A stretch of 64,000 nt of DNA from Deltaproteobacteria bacterium (GTDB lineage Bacteria > Myxococcota_C > UBA6777): the NCBI GenBank assembly GCA_002731275.1, contig PCBK01000045.1, positions 1-64,000 on the forward strand. Reading direction: 5' to 3'. Position 1 is the first letter of the stretch; each line of letters starts with the position of its first letter. Shown piece after piece: positions 1-28,797 of the stretch. The notes under the pieces are model-generated. The model saw only the letters and a list, made by a program, of their open reading frames with translations, was not told the origin of the DNA and did not search any database. The position numbers were made by a program, and so were the translations under genes.

Positions 1-49
1 GTTGCATCCCCCTCTCACCAACGCAAAGCGTTGGATCTTCCTTGAAAAC

Positions 50-654
50 CTATCGGTTTTCTTGGATAGAATGGCTGATGACAGCCATTCTGGACGGATG
101 CGCCAAGGGAGTTGGTTGCAAAGGGGAAATGGGATGGTTGCTGTCTGCATGGGTTTTGGGGAGTGGAGGTTTTTGTGGGTGTTGTTTGGATGGCGCTTGA
201 GAACGCGAAGGTTCGGTGGAGAACCGAAAGCTCTCTTTCAGCACTTCTAGTGTTGTGGGGGAGCGGTTGATGAGGACATTTGGGGAAGGAACCGCAAGGC
301 CAATAGCTCGAAGTCGTAAAGCAAAGACTCTCTTGTACTTTGTTTCCATGCGCTTGATGTTCTTGACTTCGCCGGGAAATATGACAAAAGGAACCCCCCT
401 TGTTGTACGACACTCACTTCTCTTTGCGAAGAGTAGGATACAAAGATGACGTCGTAGATGTTGAGATCCATTGCTTGTCCTGGAGATACACACAAATAAC
501 CAAGCGAACCACCCGCAAAAAGCGTCTCCGCATAAGGTTGTTTGGACAATCGCTCCAGGAAAAATAACAACTCATGTGTCTCGGTTGTATCTCGAAGCCA
601 ACGCACTTCTCTGAACTTTGTTAAAAGCTCCGGCGAATTTAAAGGTTTCCACAT
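50..654 (-). CDS. Hypothetical protein, frame broken at a G6 run
   Basis: Function not recognised. The reading frame opens with ATG at 654 and, as the bases stand, ends at 247 (135 aa). After the run of six G residues on the coding strand (plus-strand C394-C399) that frame turns Ser/Pro-rich and unlike a protein. Adding one G restores a natural-looking Lys/Glu/hydrophobic sequence (VPFVIFPGEVKNIKRMETKY...) that runs on to a stop at 50, giving about 200 aa. I therefore treat the gene as one product with an indel at the homopolymer: a sequencing error, a real mutation, or slippage. The last 60 residues of the restored frame are Pro-rich. The gene lies 45 bp downstream of another unknown gene on the same strand and is probably co-transcribed with it. 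Confidence 0.5.
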
Positions 655-20749: not shown

Positions 20750-23700
20750 CTACCGACGACGTTTACGTCGCTTGGTGCGTCTGCGTCGGCGTTTTCGTTT
20801 GGGTGTTGGGAGTGTTGTGCGTTTGGCGGAGGGGGGGTTATAGTCGGTACAGACGCCGACGTGGTGAAGCATTGACAGCAAGATGTCATGTGCGAGGTAT
20901 TTGGCTTCGGCTCTATCCTGATCCTGTCCACCTTTGCGGCAGGGTTGTCCTTGTGGGTGGTATCCATTGCCAACGACGACTGCGAACGCGATGTCCCGAA
21001 AGCGCCAGCCCTTGCCTCTGGGGATGACATCACTTCCACCTTGCTTGGTGGGGATAATGGCACCTGTAAACAGCGAGTCAGCGATGTTCTCCTCGGGATA
21101 GTCGTACAATGAGAATGTCCGCTTAAAACAGCCACTCTGTCGACGCCACTTTTTCGACGCCCTGTACGTTCTCCCTGCACGTTTGACTCTCTTGAGCAAT
21201 GCCTGACGTGAACGGGCACTTCGTGTCTCTGCTGTTCCCGTCTTCCCTACGACCTGAAGACCATAGGGGCGCAAGCAATACTTGTTGAGTGACGCAAATG
21301 GTTTGGCTGCTGTCCCTCGTGTCGTGACCGACGCCATCGCTTCTTGAATGCGTTTGGCATCTGCTCGTTGCACGATCCGTTTGGCTTTTGGGCGCTTGAG
21401 TGGTGTGCGTATCGACATCGGGGGATGTTCTTTATTGGCATCCCAATCACCGACCCAGAACTTCGGAGATGGTAAGATCCCATCATTTGCGAGCGTCGCG
21501 CTCAAGAGGGCGAGTCGAAGAGGGGAGACCGTCAGGTTCTGTCCAAAACCGACATAGGCCATCCCACGTAAAGACGCCGCGACGGAGCCAAATGTCCGTG
21601 CGGGTGAGGTTGGATATCCGTGGCGTGGGTCCGTGGCCCGTGTCGTCCACTGTTGCCATGCCGGATAGGCCGCAGCATACCCGACGTACCGACCGACGCC
21701 AAAGTAGCCTTGTGGTTGTTGCTCTCTCATGCGTTTACGAAGCGTTGCCAGAGAGGCTTTTCGTCGCTGCTTGGGTGATAATGTCTCCGAAGGCTTCGGC
21801 CACTTACTGCGTCCCGGTTCCCAGTAGACGTCTGTGTAGCGACGATAGATACGTTTGCGACCACGTCCCATCCTATAGGTATAGCGCATCAAGAAGCCGA
21901 GCTCCGACGCCGTCTTGAACAGCTCTCTATGGAGAGTTGAACGCTGGATCGCGTTGGAGATGGTCTTGGGTTCGATCTTCATAAATTGATAGCGACCGTT
22001 GCCATAGCGACTGCGATGCCAGCGGACATGGGCGGCGTTGTGACGAAGTTGTTCTTTGGGGACGCCCGCCATCTCCAACGCGAGATGGGCAAAGTAGACA
22101 TTGCAAGAGGTGGAGAGCGCCTTTTTGAGGCCGACAGGACCATGTCCTCCACGTTTATGGCAGCGGAAGTGAATCGGAGAGGGGCGCCACGTGACACGTT
22201 CATTGCCTCGGCGGTCGCGCTTCTTTTTGGGGAGCTGGAACATCAAGCCACCTGCACAGTGGTGGACCGGGAACTTCAGTGGGCGTCCTTTTTTGCGAAG
22301 GTAGCGAGCGTAGGCCATCGCGGTCACGAGCTTCGCTGTCGAGCCTGGAGTCTGTGAACCGCTGAGAGCGCGTTCGAGTAGCCAACCACTGCGGGCAGAA
22401 CCAAAGATCCCACGTCGCTCTTCCTCTTTATCCCACAGGATCGCTTCGAGATAATTGGGGACAGGTGTGGGTTTGCCGAGCAGACGCTTCTTTTTGGGGG
22501 CGTTTGGTGGCAGATGGGCTGGGTCATATGCGAGGAGCGGGTCGATGATTCCAAATCGGTCCACGAGTTGCCCCTGTAGATACCTGTACCCGCCTTTTTT
22601 ACGGTCCTGAAGGGACTTGGGATCTGGAAGGTTTGGGTCAAAGGTCGGAAAGCTCGCGGCGGCGAGGACACGTCCATTCTTTCGATTGAGCAAGACGACA
22701 GCGCCAGTGTGGGGTTTATGAGGATTCTTGAAGAAGCGCCGACGAAAGAGTTTTTTGAAGGCCTCTGAGTCCATGCGTTTGAGGTGTTGTTGTGTCGATG
22801 TAAAGGCGATGCGTTGTAGGTCTGGTAGCAGTGTCGTCGCGATCTTACGGACCTTTGGTGTCGCAGAGGTCTTGTTGTCCGTCTCTGATCTGGGAGGGAG
22901 CTGTGCTTTGAGCGCAGAAGGACGTGAACGATAAGGACCACCCACACTGCCGGCGATCGCGTGGGAGAAGACAGCGCCTTCTGGGTAGTGAGAGACGATT
23001 TGGTCCCCTCGAAAACGTGCGAAGGCCAACAGACCTTGTGGACGACGAAAGCGAAAGGAGATGTCTCCGAGCTGGAGCACGTCGCGGTCTTGAAGGGGGA
23101 TCTCATGACCCGCCTGGACGACACGTTCATTGAGCCGGATCTCCAATGAGCCCGATTGGACACGCATGTAATACCGAAGAGGTGCACCGCGTTGTTGTTC
23201 GAGTTGAGTGCGTGGAAGAGGCGCGAGGACGACTGCGTACAATCCCTGAACATTCCCGACAGGTCGTTTGACGATGCGTCCCTTTGGATCGATAAGAGGT
23301 GCTTTTGTACCGGGCTTACAATGAAGCTCCCTGATACGGCTGCGCACCAAAGAAGAGCAGGGCACAAGGATGGATGTACCCGAACGTACAAGCGCATCAC
23401 TTCCCCAGCAGGTCGTCTTATGGGTCCACTTTCTCCCTTTACGGAGGCTCTGGTTTCCACAGTGTTTGTGTCGGCTCCAGCGACCTTTGTTACGTGTCTG
23501 CAAGTCTTTGAACAGCTCGTCTTGTGTGAGGACTGTTCCGAGGCGAGTGGCGATCTCTTTGAGGGGCCAATCTTTGCTGCTCTGTTGGAGCGTCTTCGTG
23601 CGCTTCCACCAGCGTTTTTGTGGGAGCTTGTACAAAAATTGTGAGGGGGCTGCTCCTTTTGTCGGCTGTTTCTTCGTGGGGTTGGGACGATACGCGAATG

Positions 23701-25384
23701 GATGGCGACTTTCGTAAAGAGTCGCGTTGAGTGAGAGCAAGGTACGTGGGTGGGAGAGCGCACCGACCTTTTTGAATTGTCGCTCTCTCGCCTCGTTAGG
23801 AGTGTACGTCGACGCGAGTAGCTCGACAGGTTGTGTGGACAGAAATGCGACGTGCGCAGGCACTGGAGCGTTGCCTGTGTCGAGCTGTTCGAGGAAGGCC
23901 TGCCCTGTATCTGCGGCTGTTAGGATCGTCGCGAGACGTGGGTGGAGCTGCCTCTTGCGGTTGAGGTGTTTGGGGTGCATCAGGTTGCGATAAGGCGCTT
24001 GAAGGGTCGCGCCACCGACGCCCAGTCCGAGTAATTCACCCCCACTTTTGCGTTGTCTGATCCGAAAGAGAGAGCGGGCCTGTGCTCTGTAACGACGAGC
24101 TAGAGCCTGATTGGCCATCCAGATCCTGTTGCGCAAGAATGGATTTTTGTGAAGCGGCTTGAGAGTGTGTTGCCACGCTGGCAGGGGGACGAGTTGGGAC
24201 AATTGGGAGATATCGACACCTGGTTGGTGGCGTGCCGCGAGAGAGCGACGAAGATCTTCGGGGGTGAGATAGGTGAGATACTTTCTCAACACCAACTCGT
24301 GAATTTGTTCTTCGAGGTCGAGTGTACGGACGGCCTCTGGGAGGAGTTGACGAAAGTACACATCGGCCTTGCCGACGAGGAATCCCCGTTGTTCGCGCTC
24401 TTCGAGATGGGCTGGGTTGAGCTGTCTGACGCTCAGCCCTTCGCTGTCTGCCGGGTACAAGAGCAGGTCGTCGTGGTCTTTCTCCTGCTCCGACTCCCTC
24501 CACCGGAGTGTCACGGAGTGATGGGGGTGATAGCGAGGATACAGACGCAGGACATCTCCGGGCTTCAACCACAAAGAATCATTTGGACACGTTGTGCTCT
24601 TCGATGTTTTCGTTGGCGCCTTGGCGTCTTTCTCTTCTGTCTGTGAAGGCGGCGTGGGCTGCTCCTTTTGAAAGCACAACAACCGCTCGGCTTTGGGGAT
24701 GTCTTTCTCTTTGCTGTCGACGAGTAACTGGCTCCCACGTCTCTGGACAAAGAGGCTCTTGGCTGGGATCAGGGCGGAACCAATGACGATATCGTTTGAT
24801 GCACTTTTGCCGAACTGGAGACCTTTTTCCCACTTCCATTTGGGGAATCGCCAACCGACACGACGTAGCTCGATGCGTTGTTCGAGGGTGGGGTGGAGAC
24901 AGAGCCACAAGATCATCCCGTCATGTGTGAAGAATCGGATGTCCTGTGGTGTGGGTTCTCGTTCACACGTCGCTAAGAAGACCTCGGCACGTGGTGCACG
25001 AGCCCCGAAGATTGGGACGGCATCGCTTCCTCGAAAGGCACGTGTCCCAGGGCTCGGTTGGTGCGCGACAAGGTGTCCTGCGTCACCCTGTACATGGAGC
25101 AAAAAGTAGATGCCTGTCGCCGAATCCCGCAAGAGCGAGTGTGCTGACTGAAGAGGTGCATCCAAAATGACCGGTGCGTAGCGTTGTTTGGGCATATTCG
25201 TGAGCCGAAAGAGTTGGCTACATGCGACGACCGCGACGACACCAAAGAGCAAAGGCAAGATCAGCCAGGGGAGTCTATCCATCCACTGAGGTGGGGCCTT
25301 TCTCTCTCGCTCATGGCCTCCTTGAAGTCCCCATTTGGTCGACAGCTCCTGCCATATCCGTGTGAGATCTCTACGAATACTCAT
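20750..25384 (-). CDS. PBP2-like transpeptidase with FHA-like domains
   Basis: Class B penicillin-binding protein, about 1544 aa, more than twice the usual size. A single membrane anchor at residues 39-58 puts the rest in the periplasm. FHA-like features are FGKSASNDIVIG (191-202) and a later LQDRDVLQLGDISFRFRR strand pair, typical of FHA C-termini. The transpeptidase domain has S1015-T-A-K1018, S1093-C-N1095 and K1381-T-G, so it should be active and beta-lactam-sensitive in principle. The C-terminus is a polybasic tail (KRKRRRRRTKRRKRRR). I set the start at ATG 25384, with GGAGGAGGT 5 nt upstream, overlapping the FtsW-like stop as ATGA; the longer form at 25492 lacks such a site. Confidence 0.85.
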   Translation of the reverse strand: MSIRRDLTRIWQELSTKWGLQGGHERERKAPPQWMDRLPWLILPLLFGVVAVVACSQLFRLTNMPKQRYAPVILDAPLQSAHSLLRDSATGIYFLLHVQGDAGHLVAHQPSPGTRAFRGSDAVPIFGARAPRAEVFLATCEREPTPQDIRFFTHDGMILWLCLHPTLEQRIELRRVGWRFPKWKWEKGLQFGKSASNDIVIGSALIPAKSLFVQRRGSQLLVDSKEKDIPKAERLLCFQKEQPTPPSQTEEKDAKAPTKTSKSTTCPNDSLWLKPGDVLRLYPRYHPHHSVTLRWRESEQEKDHDDLLLYPADSEGLSVRQLNPAHLEEREQRGFLVGKADVYFRQLLPEAVRTLDLEEQIHELVLRKYLTYLTPEDLRRSLAARHQPGVDISQLSQLVPLPAWQHTLKPLHKNPFLRNRIWMANQALARRYRAQARSLFRIRQRKSGGELLGLGVGGATLQAPYRNLMHPKHLNRKRQLHPRLATILTAADTGQAFLEQLDTGNAPVPAHVAFLSTQPVELLASTYTPNEARERQFKKVGALSHPRTLLSLNATLYESRHPFAYRPNPTKKQPTKGAAPSQFLYKLPQKRWWKRTKTLQQSSKDWPLKEIATRLGTVLTQDELFKDLQTRNKGRWSRHKHCGNQSLRKGRKWTHKTTCWGSDALVRSGTSILVPCSSLVRSRIRELHCKPGTKAPLIDPKGRIVKRPVGNVQGLYAVVLAPLPRTQLEQQRGAPLRYYMRVQSGSLEIRLNERVVQAGHEIPLQDRDVLQLGDISFRFRRPQGLLAFARFRGDQIVSHYPEGAVFSHAIAGSVGGPYRSRPSALKAQLPPRSETDNKTSATPKVRKIATTLLPDLQRIAFTSTQQHLKRMDSEAFKKLFRRRFFKNPHKPHTGAVVLLNRKNGRVLAAASFPTFDPNLPDPKSLQDRKKGGYRYLQGQLVDRFGIIDPLLAYDPAHLPPNAPKKKRLLGKPTPVPNYLEAILWDKEEERRGIFGSARSGWLLERALSGSQTPGSTAKLVTAMAYARYLRKKGRPLKFPVHHCAGGLMFQLPKKKRDRRGNERVTWRPSPIHFRCHKRGGHGPVGLKKALSTSCNVYFAHLALEMAGVPKEQLRHNAAHVRWHRSRYGNGRYQFMKIEPKTISNAIQRSTLHRELFKTASELGFLMRYTYRMGRGRKRIYRRYTDVYWEPGRSKWPKPSETLSPKQRRKASLATLRKRMREQQPQGYFGVGRYVGYAAAYPAWQQWTTRATDPRHGYPTSPARTFGSVAASLRGMAYVGFGQNLTVSPLRLALLSATLANDGILPSPKFWVGDWDANKEHPPMSIRTPLKRPKAKRIVQRADAKRIQEAMASVTTRGTAAKPFASLNKYCLRPYGLQVVGKTGTAETRSARSRQALLKRVKRAGRTYRASKKWRRQSGCFKRTFSLYDYPEENIADSLFTGAIIPTKQGGSDVIPRGKGWRFRDIAFAVVVGNGYHPQGQPCRKGGQDQDRAEAKYLAHDILLSMLHHVGVCTDYNPPSAKRTTLPTPKRKRRRRRTKRRKRRR

Positions 25385-28300
25385 GATACCTCCTCCTCTG
25401 CGGGCTCCCAGGGATGATGGTGCATCTGACGATAGATCAGCGCCAGCACAAAGTAACAGGCGACGAGGCTCGTCCCTCCCGACGAGACCCACGTCAGGGT
25501 GACCCCTGTCATCGGTGTCAGACGCAGTGTTGAGCCTATATGAATGAAGTTCTGTGCGAACAGGTAGATGCTCCCAAACAACATCAGCAGGCTGCGGATA
25601 CTGCTCTGTTTTTTGTAGGCGAGGGCGGCTTTGTTGTCGCCAAAAGAAGCCTCACCTTCGGCCTTTGGAAACAGCGGATACCAGTGCAGCCACGCGACAC
25701 CTAACGTCATCAAGGGGAACGCGCAGGTGGTGAGCAACACGATGTATCCCCACAGCGGCGAGAGGACGCGGACGACAGCGGTCAGCACAAAGTCACTGTG
25801 TAGGTTGTTGAACCACTGAAAGGCACCCTTGTATCCAGCGAGATCCCATTGGTTTTGTAGGAGCTGTTCACCCACCATAAAGCGCCAGGGTTGGTTCCAC
25901 AGCGCCAATCGTTCGCGCACCTTTTGTAGCTCGCTGTTATGTAAGGCCCACTCCGGTTGGAGCGTTGCCAGTAAGTCTGGGAGCCAAAACAGTACGGCGA
26001 TCCCACCAAAGACCACGCCGATACGCAAGAGGTTGCCCGCAGTCACCAGACGGTCGACACCTGGGGCGAGAAAGATAAACAGGATGTACAGCGAAAAGCA
26101 CAGCGTCAAGATCAGCCCCGGCCCCAGGTCCCCCTGGATCGTGTACAGAACGCAGATCGCGCCGAGCAAAAACAAGTACAACATCGAGAGCTGCATCGCC
26201 CCAAACAGGATCTTCCCTCGCTCCTGTGGGGTAAAGGTCTGGACTGCTTTTTGTTCGGGCAGTGTGGCCGTTCGTTCTCCTGGCTGGGCGAGCTGTTGGG
26301 CTTCTCTTTGTCGTTGTTGTGTGTGACGCGCTTTGCGCAATCGCAGGGCAAAGAGTTCGTGTCCCAAATAGCCTGAGAAGAAATAGATCGCCGCCAGGAT
26401 CGCGAAGTCCGAGAGCTTCACTGTACCGATCAGTGGGATGACCAAAAAGAACCTGTTGTGGACGGCGCCAGGTATCAACAGACCTAACAATGGGACAAAG
26501 CCCAGTAACGCCAAGGTATAAAAGAAGAAGCGCAAACTCTTTCGCTGTAGGGGGACCTGTCGTGCGCGTTCGAACTCCTTCATCAGGACGCTCCCACAAA
26601 AGAGCACGACGATCGCGAGCAGGAAGGTCAACCACGTCCCAAACAGCCAACCAAAGAAGATGGCGCAGACCAAACACACGAGCGCAAAGCCACGAAACTC
26701 CCATGTCTCAAAGAGTGGTGTCGGCGCAAACTCTGGTTCAATCGCCTGTTTGATGTGATCGCGTGTGCGCCAATCTTGGACGCGCTGCCAGATATCTCGT
26801 GGCAGTATAAAGAGCCCAACAAATGCGGTGAATCCGACGAGAGACCACAAGAGTTGTCTGTACAAGAAGTCGTTGTTGTTGAGCCCAAGAGACGAGAGGG
26901 AGAGTGTGGCGAGGACATACAATCCCATACCGTTGAGGAAGATCGCGACAGGTAACAACAACATCGCGGGGAACCACAGCGCAAACATCAACAGGCTACC
27001 GTACCACGGGAGGGCTGGGAGCGGTTGACCTTCTTCTTCGGAGGCGCGCCACATTCGACGCTGTGTGCGTGTGAGCAGTGCCTGACGCAGGTCGCCTTCT
27101 GGAAGTAACTTCATCAAAACACTGCTCGGTGGGATGGGACTCCAGGTGACACGTCCAGTCGTAAGCATCCAATACAAAAAGAGGGACAACCCCATAAAGA
27201 TCGTGCCCCAGAGTAAGGCGATGCGCCACGCGAGGGCCGCATACGATGGCCGAAAGACTCGAAAATAAAAACGCTTTGTGTAGTAGATGTGTTCGGCTTT
27301 GTGGGGGATACCGGCTTTGGGGAGTTTCTTGAGCAGGGTGCCATCTGCTTTGGCGAGGTAGAGCGCTGCGCCTTCGAGTGGGCGGACCTGCAAGTGGCCT
27401 TTTTTGTCTGGTTGTATCTCCATAAACGGACGGTAGGGAGAGACGAGCTGTGTTTTACCGGGCTCGCCGACAAGTGATGTGCGAATGGTCCAACGATCGG
27501 CCTGTGGGTTCCCACCACCGCCACCTGTGATGAGCAAGTGGCGTCCTTCTGGCAAGAAACGTCTCATCGGATAGTTGTGGGATGGGTAGGTCGAGAAGAA
27601 CGGTATCAACGTCGTCTTAGGGAGACGTGTGAGCATCATCCTCACGCCTTCTGGGGTGAAGGAGAGTCTGTAGGTGAGTTGGCCTGCGGAGAGTAGATCG
27701 CCATCGTAGAGGCTGGTTGTACCGAGCAGACGAGCTGAACCACGCCCCGGCAAGATCTGCATAGGGCGGTTACCCTGTCCGAGATGTTGCAGGAGGAGGC
27801 GTTTATTCTGGAAGTACAGACGTGCGATGCCCGCGATCTCCAGGCCACCAGGGATCGCAGACTCTCTGAGCGGAAAGGGGCAGGAGGTGTTGGTCTGTGT
27901 GAGTGTGTAACCCGGCGCGGTCGTCAGGTAGGTCTTGTGTTGCAAGGACACATTGTAAGATGGTTGTTTGCCCCACGAGATCGTCCCTGTGAAGGGCTTC
28001 CACTGTGTCCCAAATAAGCGTCGCCACTGACCATATCTGTACGCGAGCGCGTCGCCTTTGACCTCCTTTGGGAGCCTGTAATACTGGTGTGGTCCGAGTC
28101 TCATCTGTCGTGGCTGCTTGCCTTTGATGTCAAACAGGAGTTGCTCTTCGTTCCAGCGTATAGGGAGTTTGGATGCTTGGATGGTGAATGAGATGGTCTG
28201 CCCATCGTCGCGCTTCTTTTGGGTCTTACTTGGTTTGGGTGTCTTTGTCTTGGAGGCTGTGGTTTTGGGGGGCGGACTCGTGCGCAGGAGTTGAAGGAGT

Positions 28301-28797
28301 TGTGATGGCTGGCACCAGTCGATTTTTCGGAGCCCTTGAAAGGAGGCATTTTTGCGGATGTGTTGTAGTGGGAGGAGGAAGTGATCGCCGTCACGCAGCC
28401 TATGTCTATTGACTTTGACAGTGCCGCCTTTTTGGCGCCTGATCATGATGCGTCTATCGCGGCTGCGGTTGTTGAGCTGTGCCCATCTGTGGCCTTTTCC
28501 GCCGCGACGTTCGAGGACAAAGTGTTCGCCAGAGGCTTTGCGATCGTGAAGGACGATGTCATTGTCCCGTCTTGTCGTACCGACCGCGATAATATGTCGT
28601 TGTGGACCCACTCTGCGCCAGGACGCGAAGTGACCGACCTGGGCGACCTGAAGTGGCTCGGAGAAGTCGCGCAGGCCGATCTGACAAGACCAGAACAACA
28701 CCGATATCGTGCTGCCCATCAAAAGGATCCATGCTGCCAGACGATCCTGGCTTCTTGGTGTCGTCTTTTTTTGGAAGAGGGAACCCACATTCAGCAC
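25381..28797 (-). CDS. FHA-like domain fused to FtsW/RodA/SpoVE-family glycosyltransferase
   Basis: SEDS-family peptidoglycan polymerase with a long N-terminal addition. TM1 is at residues 20-38. Residues 70-93 (VGTTRRDNDIVLHDRKASGE then HF) match the FHA core G-x-x-x-x-x-N-D-I-x-L-x-D-x-x-x-S-x-x-H. A second FHA-like end (LYDGDLLSAGQLTYRLSF) lies near residue 370. A further TM near 550 returns the chain to the cytoplasm before the SEDS core (about 630-1130), which contains multiple TMs, the NNLHSDFVLTAVVRVL loop (the SEDS H-S/T-D-F signature) and the end MTGVTLTWVSSGGTS. Start GTG 28797 has GAGAGG 8 nt upstream. It is coupled to the PBP by ATGA and lies 17 nt after the EEP gene. Confidence 0.85.
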   Translation of the reverse strand: MLNVGSLFQKKTTPRSQDRLAAWILLMGSTISVLFWSCQIGLRDFSEPLQVAQVGHFASWRRVGPQRHIIAVGTTRRDNDIVLHDRKASGEHFVLERRGGKGHRWAQLNNRSRDRRIMIRRQKGGTVKVNRHRLRDGDHFLLPLQHIRKNASFQGLRKIDWCQPSQLLQLLRTSPPPKTTASKTKTPKPSKTQKKRDDGQTISFTIQASKLPIRWNEEQLLFDIKGKQPRQMRLGPHQYYRLPKEVKGDALAYRYGQWRRLFGTQWKPFTGTISWGKQPSYNVSLQHKTYLTTAPGYTLTQTNTSCPFPLRESAIPGGLEIAGIARLYFQNKRLLLQHLGQGNRPMQILPGRGSARLLGTTSLYDGDLLSAGQLTYRLSFTPEGVRMMLTRLPKTTLIPFFSTYPSHNYPMRRFLPEGRHLLITGGGGGNPQADRWTIRTSLVGEPGKTQLVSPYRPFMEIQPDKKGHLQVRPLEGAALYLAKADGTLLKKLPKAGIPHKAEHIYYTKRFYFRVFRPSYAALAWRIALLWGTIFMGLSLFLYWMLTTGRVTWSPIPPSSVLMKLLPEGDLRQALLTRTQRRMWRASEEEGQPLPALPWYGSLLMFALWFPAMLLLPVAIFLNGMGLYVLATLSLSSLGLNNNDFLYRQLLWSLVGFTAFVGLFILPRDIWQRVQDWRTRDHIKQAIEPEFAPTPLFETWEFRGFALVCLVCAIFFGWLFGTWLTFLLAIVVLFCGSVLMKEFERARQVPLQRKSLRFFFYTLALLGFVPLLGLLIPGAVHNRFFLVIPLIGTVKLSDFAILAAIYFFSGYLGHELFALRLRKARHTQQRQREAQQLAQPGERTATLPEQKAVQTFTPQERGKILFGAMQLSMLYLFLLGAICVLYTIQGDLGPGLILTLCFSLYILFIFLAPGVDRLVTAGNLLRIGVVFGGIAVLFWLPDLLATLQPEWALHNSELQKVRERLALWNQPWRFMVGEQLLQNQWDLAGYKGAFQWFNNLHSDFVLTAVVRVLSPLWGYIVLLTTCAFPLMTLGVAWLHWYPLFPKAEGEASFGDNKAALAYKKQSSIRSLLMLFGSIYLFAQNFIHIGSTLRLTPMTGVTLTWVSSGGTSLVACYFVLALIYRQMHHHPWEPAEEEVS

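Follow-up and report, generated by a model that had tools for sequence, protein, structure and literature searches.

SEDS polymerases and the class B penicillin-binding proteins (PBPs) with which they pair are central antibiotic targets, and it is still an open question how, outside the membrane, the polymerase is coupled to the transpeptidase. In actinobacteria, forkhead-associated (FHA) domains are linked with RodA-type synthesis in the context of FhaA and FhaB, where they bind phosphothreonine, are cytoplasmic and belong to separate proteins. Within the Rod complex, the pedestal of PBP2 is bound and opened by MreC, an event proposed to result in the activation of RodA (PMC5626683, PMC6207328). 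Here, we analyzed a stretch of 64,000 nt (the window) of contig PCBK01000045.1 (assembly GCA_002731275.1; Deltaproteobacteria bacterium, GTDB Myxococcota_C; UBA6777), in which two overlapping genes encode a SEDS protein and a PBP2-type class B PBP, both carrying large ectodomains with FHA-type modules (hereinafter FHA-SEDS and FHA-PBP). We suggest, with chances that we judge to be evenly balanced, that they form a distinct SEDS-PBP2-type synthase whose extracytoplasmic FHA-fold ectodomains regulate or couple the two enzymes in place of MreC and of the PBP2 pedestal.

A sequence-only reading of this DNA had delimited the two genes, and its coordinates and reading frames were found to be correct on re-check (Table 1). 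The SEDS core is recognized by PF01098 (FtsW/RodA/SpoVE) with 38.3 bits against a cut-off of 26.4 (68 bits in the second-phylum member described below), and D1002, embedded in the motif NLHSDF, is the counterpart of the Asp of HTDF in E. coli RodA and FtsW and is invariant in the family; the EELG motif that follows the catalytic Asp of RodA/FtsW is not retained. The protein misses the NCBIfam equivalog cut-offs of both ftsW (38 vs. 337.5 bits) and rodA (25.1 vs. 336.7 bits). As for the PBP, its best NCBIfam model is pbp2_mrdA (104.5 bits, which does not reach the equivalog cut-off of 455), and the PBP2/MrdA model scores best in every FHA-PBP member scanned; no transglycosylase domain was found in the window PBP. 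Besides the anchor and an intact transpeptidase domain, it carries about 780 extra residues. Its open reading frame extends up to a GTG at 25492, whose numbering is used for the PBP residues unless stated, although translation probably begins at the ATG at 25384.

Transmembrane (TM) segments were placed by hydropathy in both proteins. The first one of FHA-SEDS falls at residues 20-38, exactly where the sequence-only reading had put it; a second one, expected near residue 550, does exist, but at 526-544. Between them lies an ectodomain of 487 residues, basic in composition (82 K+R vs. 31 D+E) and containing exactly two cysteines, both invariant across the aligned members of the window's phylum. 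The PBP has a single anchor, that formerly given as 39-58, corresponding to 77-95 in the GTG numbering, and seven invariant cysteines in its ectodomain between residues 100 and 880. The SEDS core is known to have its N-terminus inside; if this orientation is kept here, where two TM segments precede the core, residues 39-525 should be outside the cytoplasm, and the same should hold for the PBP ectodomain, because there is one N-terminal anchor and the transpeptidase must face outward. The FHA modules of both partners are strongly predicted to be extracytoplasmic, and the invariant cysteines are consistent with disulphides, so that the periplasm-facing orientation proposed earlier has gained support from hydropathy, core orientation, the single PBP anchor and the cysteines. 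The possibility of cytoplasmic FHA modules was considered and rejected in view of the orientation of the SEDS core, the two preceding TM segments and the single PBP anchor.

The FHA nature of the ectodomains was assessed by comparing them, using hhalign, with a reference profile derived from ten ordinary FHA domains that the window's genome encodes, taking as control the maximum score of column-shuffled alignments; reversed and unrelated control regions were also scored, and gave at most 20.3. (That genome, of 10.75 Mb, holds 58 FHA matches above the Pfam cut-off.) The whole SEDS ectodomain scored 35.5 (shuffled maximum 20.4), with a peak at about residues 70-144, in the module that we call FHA-a and in which an FHA core had been noticed at 70-93. 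Pfam FHA (PF00498) matches this module with 24.6 bits in the genome search, above the cut-off of 20.7, and with 20.1 bits, just below it, in hmmscan (residues 77-141); each of the four full-length orthologues is also matched in its SEDS ectodomain, with 4.9e-5 as the best E-value. A degenerate module, FHA-b, peaks at about 327-385 and is weak taken alone; in the SEDS ectodomain of the second phylum, the corresponding region aligns to it (31.2 vs. 20.3 for the shuffled control). Judged from these comparisons, the FHA homology of the SEDS ectodomain is real and beyond chance.

The whole PBP ectodomain scored 38.4 against the same FHA profile (shuffled maximum 19.0), and both the FHA-like motif suspected earlier at 191-202 (227-238 in GTG numbering) and a second one at about 730-825 exceed every shuffled control. 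Pfam FHA makes no call in the window PBP and, therefore, the FHA claim for this protein consists of profile-profile evidence. Region 2 is retained in the second-phylum PBP (58.4 vs. 28.8 for the shuffled control, profile comparison) and directly precedes a conserved YPEG/GSVGG segment, itself lying ahead of the transpeptidase. The PBP2 pedestal (the PBP dimerisation domain family) gave no Pfam match up to E 5 in five members.

The SEDS ectodomain (residues 39-525) was also modelled with AlphaFold (AF2) from a six-row alignment, a kind of check that had been proposed earlier. What looks like an FHA fold is present in this model, whose mean predicted local distance difference test (pLDDT) value is 52.7, with block means of 70-89 at residues 459-518. 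The top Foldseek match is an FHA domain (probability 1.00, with an E-value of only 0.016), and the best VIA-align match is the FHA domain of CT664 (3gqs; Z 12.0, rmsd 2.6, 98 residues, model range 9..480), nearly all the top VIA-align rows being FHA domains. The simplest reading of the model would be a membrane-proximal FHA fold made of a strand at 47-56 and of residues from about 412 to 517, with the other domains inserted between them. By profile comparison there is no sequence signal for a third SEDS FHA domain at 420-522, although the structure model suggests one. Pfam Yop-YscD_cpl gave a weak match.

The phosphothreonine pocket shows a different pattern of conservation. GR, SxxH and SxNG are all kept in the ten control FHA domains of the window's genome, whereas the five sequences of the SEDS family read GT, GT, GR, GR and GR in place of the first and SGEH, SPEH, STEH, SIEH and DGEVH in place of the second. 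In genus g2, as in the window, Thr takes the place of the pocket Arg; the second phylum has Asp where Ser would be expected, and NRS replaces SxNG. Since the FHA homology is kept while pocket residues are lost, phosphothreonine reading is unlikely as a conserved function; the doubt already raised about the usual binding mode is supported, and ordinary phosphothreonine signalling by FHA-a is disfavoured.

The distribution of the two proteins was surveyed in five genomes (three genera) of the window's phylum and, by profiles, in 386 genomes overall. Each of the five encodes both FHA-SEDS and FHA-PBP. Convincing matches to the SEDS ectodomain profile are confined to these five, whereas that of the PBP ectodomain additionally matches G352, a genome belonging to a second phylum. 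In G352 the SEDS protein (about 977 residues) has the same TM-ectodomain-TM-core layout, with a Pfam FHA match at the corresponding place (E 0.046), and is followed, with a four-base overlap, by a PBP having the same pre-transpeptidase module as the window PBP. In the tree, the FHA-SEDS proteins from the two phyla group in a single clade (support 100/100), which is stable after removing long rows and lies apart from both RodA and FtsW; the G352 core scores 119-137 bits against the window family and at most 45 against ordinary SEDS proteins. Likewise, the FHA-PBPs of both phyla form one clade within class B (98/98). The two proteins, thus, appear from their trees to share a history across two phyla, and we consider that there are good grounds to infer a physical partnership between them. 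Single-protein scans of the genome and viral contigs found nothing. One further candidate, in which an unrelated membrane protein is joined to an FHA-SEDS fragment at the contig end of a metagenome-assembled genome (L069:8500-9905), was set aside as a probable chimeric assembly.

Each genome of the window's phylum has exactly one other SEDS protein above the cut-off (5/5). In the window's genome this is a canonical FtsW (366 bits vs. a cut-off of 337.5), and there is one FtsI-like class B PBP besides FHA-PBP, the remaining PBPs being class A (P0003 and, by reading the sequence, L017). P0003 (L056:8325-12476) is a divergent class A PBP of 1383 aa with several N-terminal TM segments. MreC was found in none of the five genomes at E <= 0.001; matches to the MreB model do not exceed 64 bits, a score that actin-fold proteins of the DnaK/FtsA type would be expected to reach, and lie in frames sized like DnaK and FtsA, which were not identified one by one; a true MreB looks absent from the phylum. 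Because FHA-SEDS is the only SEDS protein beside the canonical one, and FHA-PBP the only class B PBP beside the FtsI-like one in the window's genome, the pair is the obvious one to consider for the role of RodA-PBP2, which it might play in cells lacking MreC and apparently MreB. Neither the pedestal family nor MreC was found, and FHA-like region 2 stands directly before the YPEG/GSVGG segment; the proposal that finds most support is that the ectodomains have assumed the control or coupling of the enzymes outside the cytoplasm.

On this basis, the following scenario can be proposed. The SEDS polymerase and the PBP2-type class B PBP would act as one cell-wall synthase; their FHA modules, without the usual phosphothreonine pocket, would most probably serve as protein-protein docking or structural modules; and holding or switching the complex of polymerase and transpeptidase would fall to the ectodomains, a job that elsewhere is performed by MreC on the PBP2 pedestal. 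That the FHA modules couple or activate the enzymes is the hypothetical step of this scenario. A bolder version, according to which this is a third kind of SEDS-PBP synthase, besides RodA-PBP2 and FtsW-FtsI, where phosphothreonine-independent FHA modules outside the cytoplasm pair or activate both enzymes directly and so stand in for MreC and the pedestal in bacteria devoid of the Mre system, is possible, but we advance it only tentatively and hold it to be rather doubtful.

Several observations weigh against the proposed synthase. The SEDS and PBP genes are adjacent in the window's genome only, being on separate contigs in the other four of the five; the idea of a gene pair conserved across the phylum was, therefore, rejected, and the survey of the pair suggested by the sequence-only reading bore out the co-occurrence of the two proteins (with the pair found also in the second phylum) and not their adjacency. 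The occurrence in the second phylum rests on one genome, seven other genomes of that phylum giving no match to a homologous pair. The profiles of the SEDS and PBP ectodomains score 25.9 against each other, barely above the shuffled maximum of 25.3, so that a shared ancestry of the two ectodomains finds no clear support; the direct FHA-FHA pairing that had been imagined earlier gains no direct support from this comparison or from the separate contigs, and is not contradicted by the comparison. The AF2 model of the SEDS ectodomain is, with its low mean pLDDT, mostly of low confidence, and FHA-a modelled alone gave a low-confidence structure that did not match FHA structures. Topology is assigned from hydropathy, the absence of MreB is deduced from low scores, and the MreB/MreC survey covered the five genomes of the window's phylum.

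Different explanations might account for the nature of the modules themselves. It might be supposed that they merely share a beta-sandwich arrangement with FHA domains without being their homologues, as would fit the missing Pfam FHA call in the PBP and the failure of isolated FHA-a to match FHA structures; this is very unlikely in the light of the Pfam FHA matches in four of four full-length orthologues and, independently and at the corresponding position, in the second-phylum SEDS (E 0.046), of profile scores exceeding all shuffles and of the predominance of FHA domains among the top structural matches. If the homology is accepted, the domains might still read phosphorylated envelope proteins, in a form of extracytoplasmic phosphothreonine signalling. 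Ser89 and His92 of FHA-a are kept in all the members of the window's phylum, and Arg follows Gly in three of the five sequences. However, the substitutions of Arg, Ser and SxNG described above, set against intact pockets in all ten controls, as well as the cytoplasmic activity of ATP-dependent kinases, make this idea extremely improbable.

Other explanations concern the role of the pair. According to one of them, the FHA-fold ectodomains would be sensors of ligands (e.g., glycan strands, lipid II or an envelope protein) gating each enzyme separately, with no coupling. The large basic ectodomains (see the composition of that of SEDS), a stretch resembling LysM (Pfam E 0.16) in the PBP of the second phylum and the lack of linkage between the genes in four of the five genomes of the window's phylum are in agreement with it, whereas the congruence of the SEDS and PBP clades, with genes that overlap in both phyla, points to a joint role, and the only ligand-binding families found are FHA and the weak LysM; we regard independent sensing as unlikely, although worthy of consideration. 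The pair might also be a specialised synthase (for spores, cysts, predation or the division site) rather than an enzyme of elongation or general growth. Indeed, about 6 kb separate the SEDS gene of genus g3 from a ddl-ftsQ-ftsA cluster, and subfamily models place the SEDS protein nearer to FtsW than to RodA; this, too, seems improbable to us, given that in all five genomes FHA-SEDS is the sole SEDS protein beside the canonical one and that the PBP is best described as PBP2/MrdA in every member scanned. The reading that we prefer remains that of a regulated or coupled synthase, as outlined above.

Table 1. Position of the FHA-SEDS and FHA-PBP genes, of their domains and of the neighbouring gene in the window.
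Feature	Position	Strand	Evidence or remark
EEP (endonuclease/exonuclease/phosphatase)-family protein, N-terminal hydrophobic segment	28815..29882	-	PF03372 E 1.8e-11
FHA-SEDS gene	25381..28797	-	1138 aa, GTG start; PF01098 E 1e-9
SEDS TM a, residues 20-38 (in to out)	28684..28740	-	hydropathy
Probable first strand of membrane-proximal fold, residues 47-56	28630-28659	-	segment assignment inferred
FHA-a, residues about 70-144	28366..28590	-	Pfam FHA E 8.7e-4 at 77-141; hhalign 35.5 vs. shuffled maximum 20.4
FHA-b, degenerate, residues about 316-400	27598..27852	-	hhalign 24.1 vs. shuffled maximum 21.6
Membrane-proximal FHA-type fold, residues about 412-517	27247..27564	-	AF2 model and VIA-align
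SEDS TM b, residues 526-544 (out to in)	27166..27222	-	hydropathy
SEDS core, residues 603-1121, extra TM hairpin 700-739	25435..26991	-	Pfam, alignment, hydropathy
Catalytic-type Asp D1002 in NLHSDF	25792-25794	-	alignment with SEDS homologues
ATGA overlap, SEDS stop/PBP start	25381..25384	-	strong Shine-Dalgarno-like site, purine-rich GGAGGAGG, directly upstream
FHA-PBP gene, class B, PBP2-type	20750..25384	-	PF00905 E 3.7e-19; NCBIfam pbp2_mrdA 104.5 bits
Single PBP membrane anchor, residues 77-95	25208..25264	-	hydropathy
PBP FHA-like region 1, residues about 205-345	24458..24880	-	hhalign 30.1 vs. shuffled maximum 15.8; aligned 225-258
PBP FHA-like region 2, residues about 730-830	23003..23305	-	hhalign 35.6 vs. 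shuffled maximum 16.2; peak 758-825
Transpeptidase domain, STAK 1051, SCN 1129, KTG 1417	20813..22855	-	Pfam, motif reading

As far as the surroundings of the two genes are concerned, the EEP-family gene sits 17 bases upstream of the FHA-SEDS gene in the window, and a gene of the same family is upstream of FHA-SEDS in all three genera (L048, L053, L066), with one peptidase gene between them in G003. The g3 locus mentioned above (L066:17975-21205) is close to likely ddl, ftsQ and ftsA genes, named from sequence. In the second phylum, the pair is followed by two large proteins with no Pfam match (L098:8367-13388), the second of which has weak FHA-like segments (24.5 vs. a shuffled maximum of 22.4). 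At its C-terminus the window PBP bears an Arg/Lys run (20750-20880), which is much longer in G003 (L049) and absent in genus g3.

With fused FHA-type modules of its own and apparently no MreC, a deep clade such as this would offer a compact natural system for testing the coupling of polymerase and transpeptidase; if true, the FHA fold would, moreover, be put to an uncommon use, beyond the cytoplasm and free of phosphothreonine. A partial literature search, limited to titles and abstracts, retrieved no FHA-SEDS fusions or extracytoplasmic FHA domains, cytoplasmic FHA-FtsW fusions being outside its scope.

Among the described systems, the pair resembles RodA-PBP2 (MrdB-MrdA) in joining a SEDS protein and a class B PBP that keep their catalytic motifs, the PBP fitting the PBP2/MrdA model best, and in the overlap of the two genes, seen in the window and in the second phylum. 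Unlike in RodA-PBP2, both partners bear large FHA-type ectodomains, the SEDS protein forms its own clade and has two extra N-terminal TM segments (and a further TM hairpin in the window protein), no pedestal family is recognised in the PBP, and the window's phylum is without MreC and apparently without MreB. The FtsW-FtsI divisome synthase comprises the same kinds of enzymes; however, each genome has a separate canonical SEDS protein, and that of the window has its own FtsW and FtsI-like PBP. As in the actinobacterial RodA/PbpA system with FhaA, FhaB and PknB, FHA modules are linked to RodA-type synthesis, but here they are fused to the enzymes, predicted to be extracytoplasmic and devoid of a conserved pocket. 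An FHA fold within a membrane protein is also found in the ring proteins of type III secretion systems (YscD/PrgH/MxiG, PscD, CdsD), and the best structural match of the SEDS ectodomain is the FHA domain of Chlamydia CT664, the Yop-YscD_cpl match being weak; in those ring proteins, unlike in FHA-SEDS, the FHA domain is the cytoplasmic part. Finally, MreC would do the same job that we propose for the FHA modules, i.e., the extracytoplasmic control of a SEDS-PBP pair, although it is a separate protein of another family. The kinds of enzymes involved are already known, whereas the clade, the architecture and its co-occurrence with the lack of MreC are, as far as tested, new.

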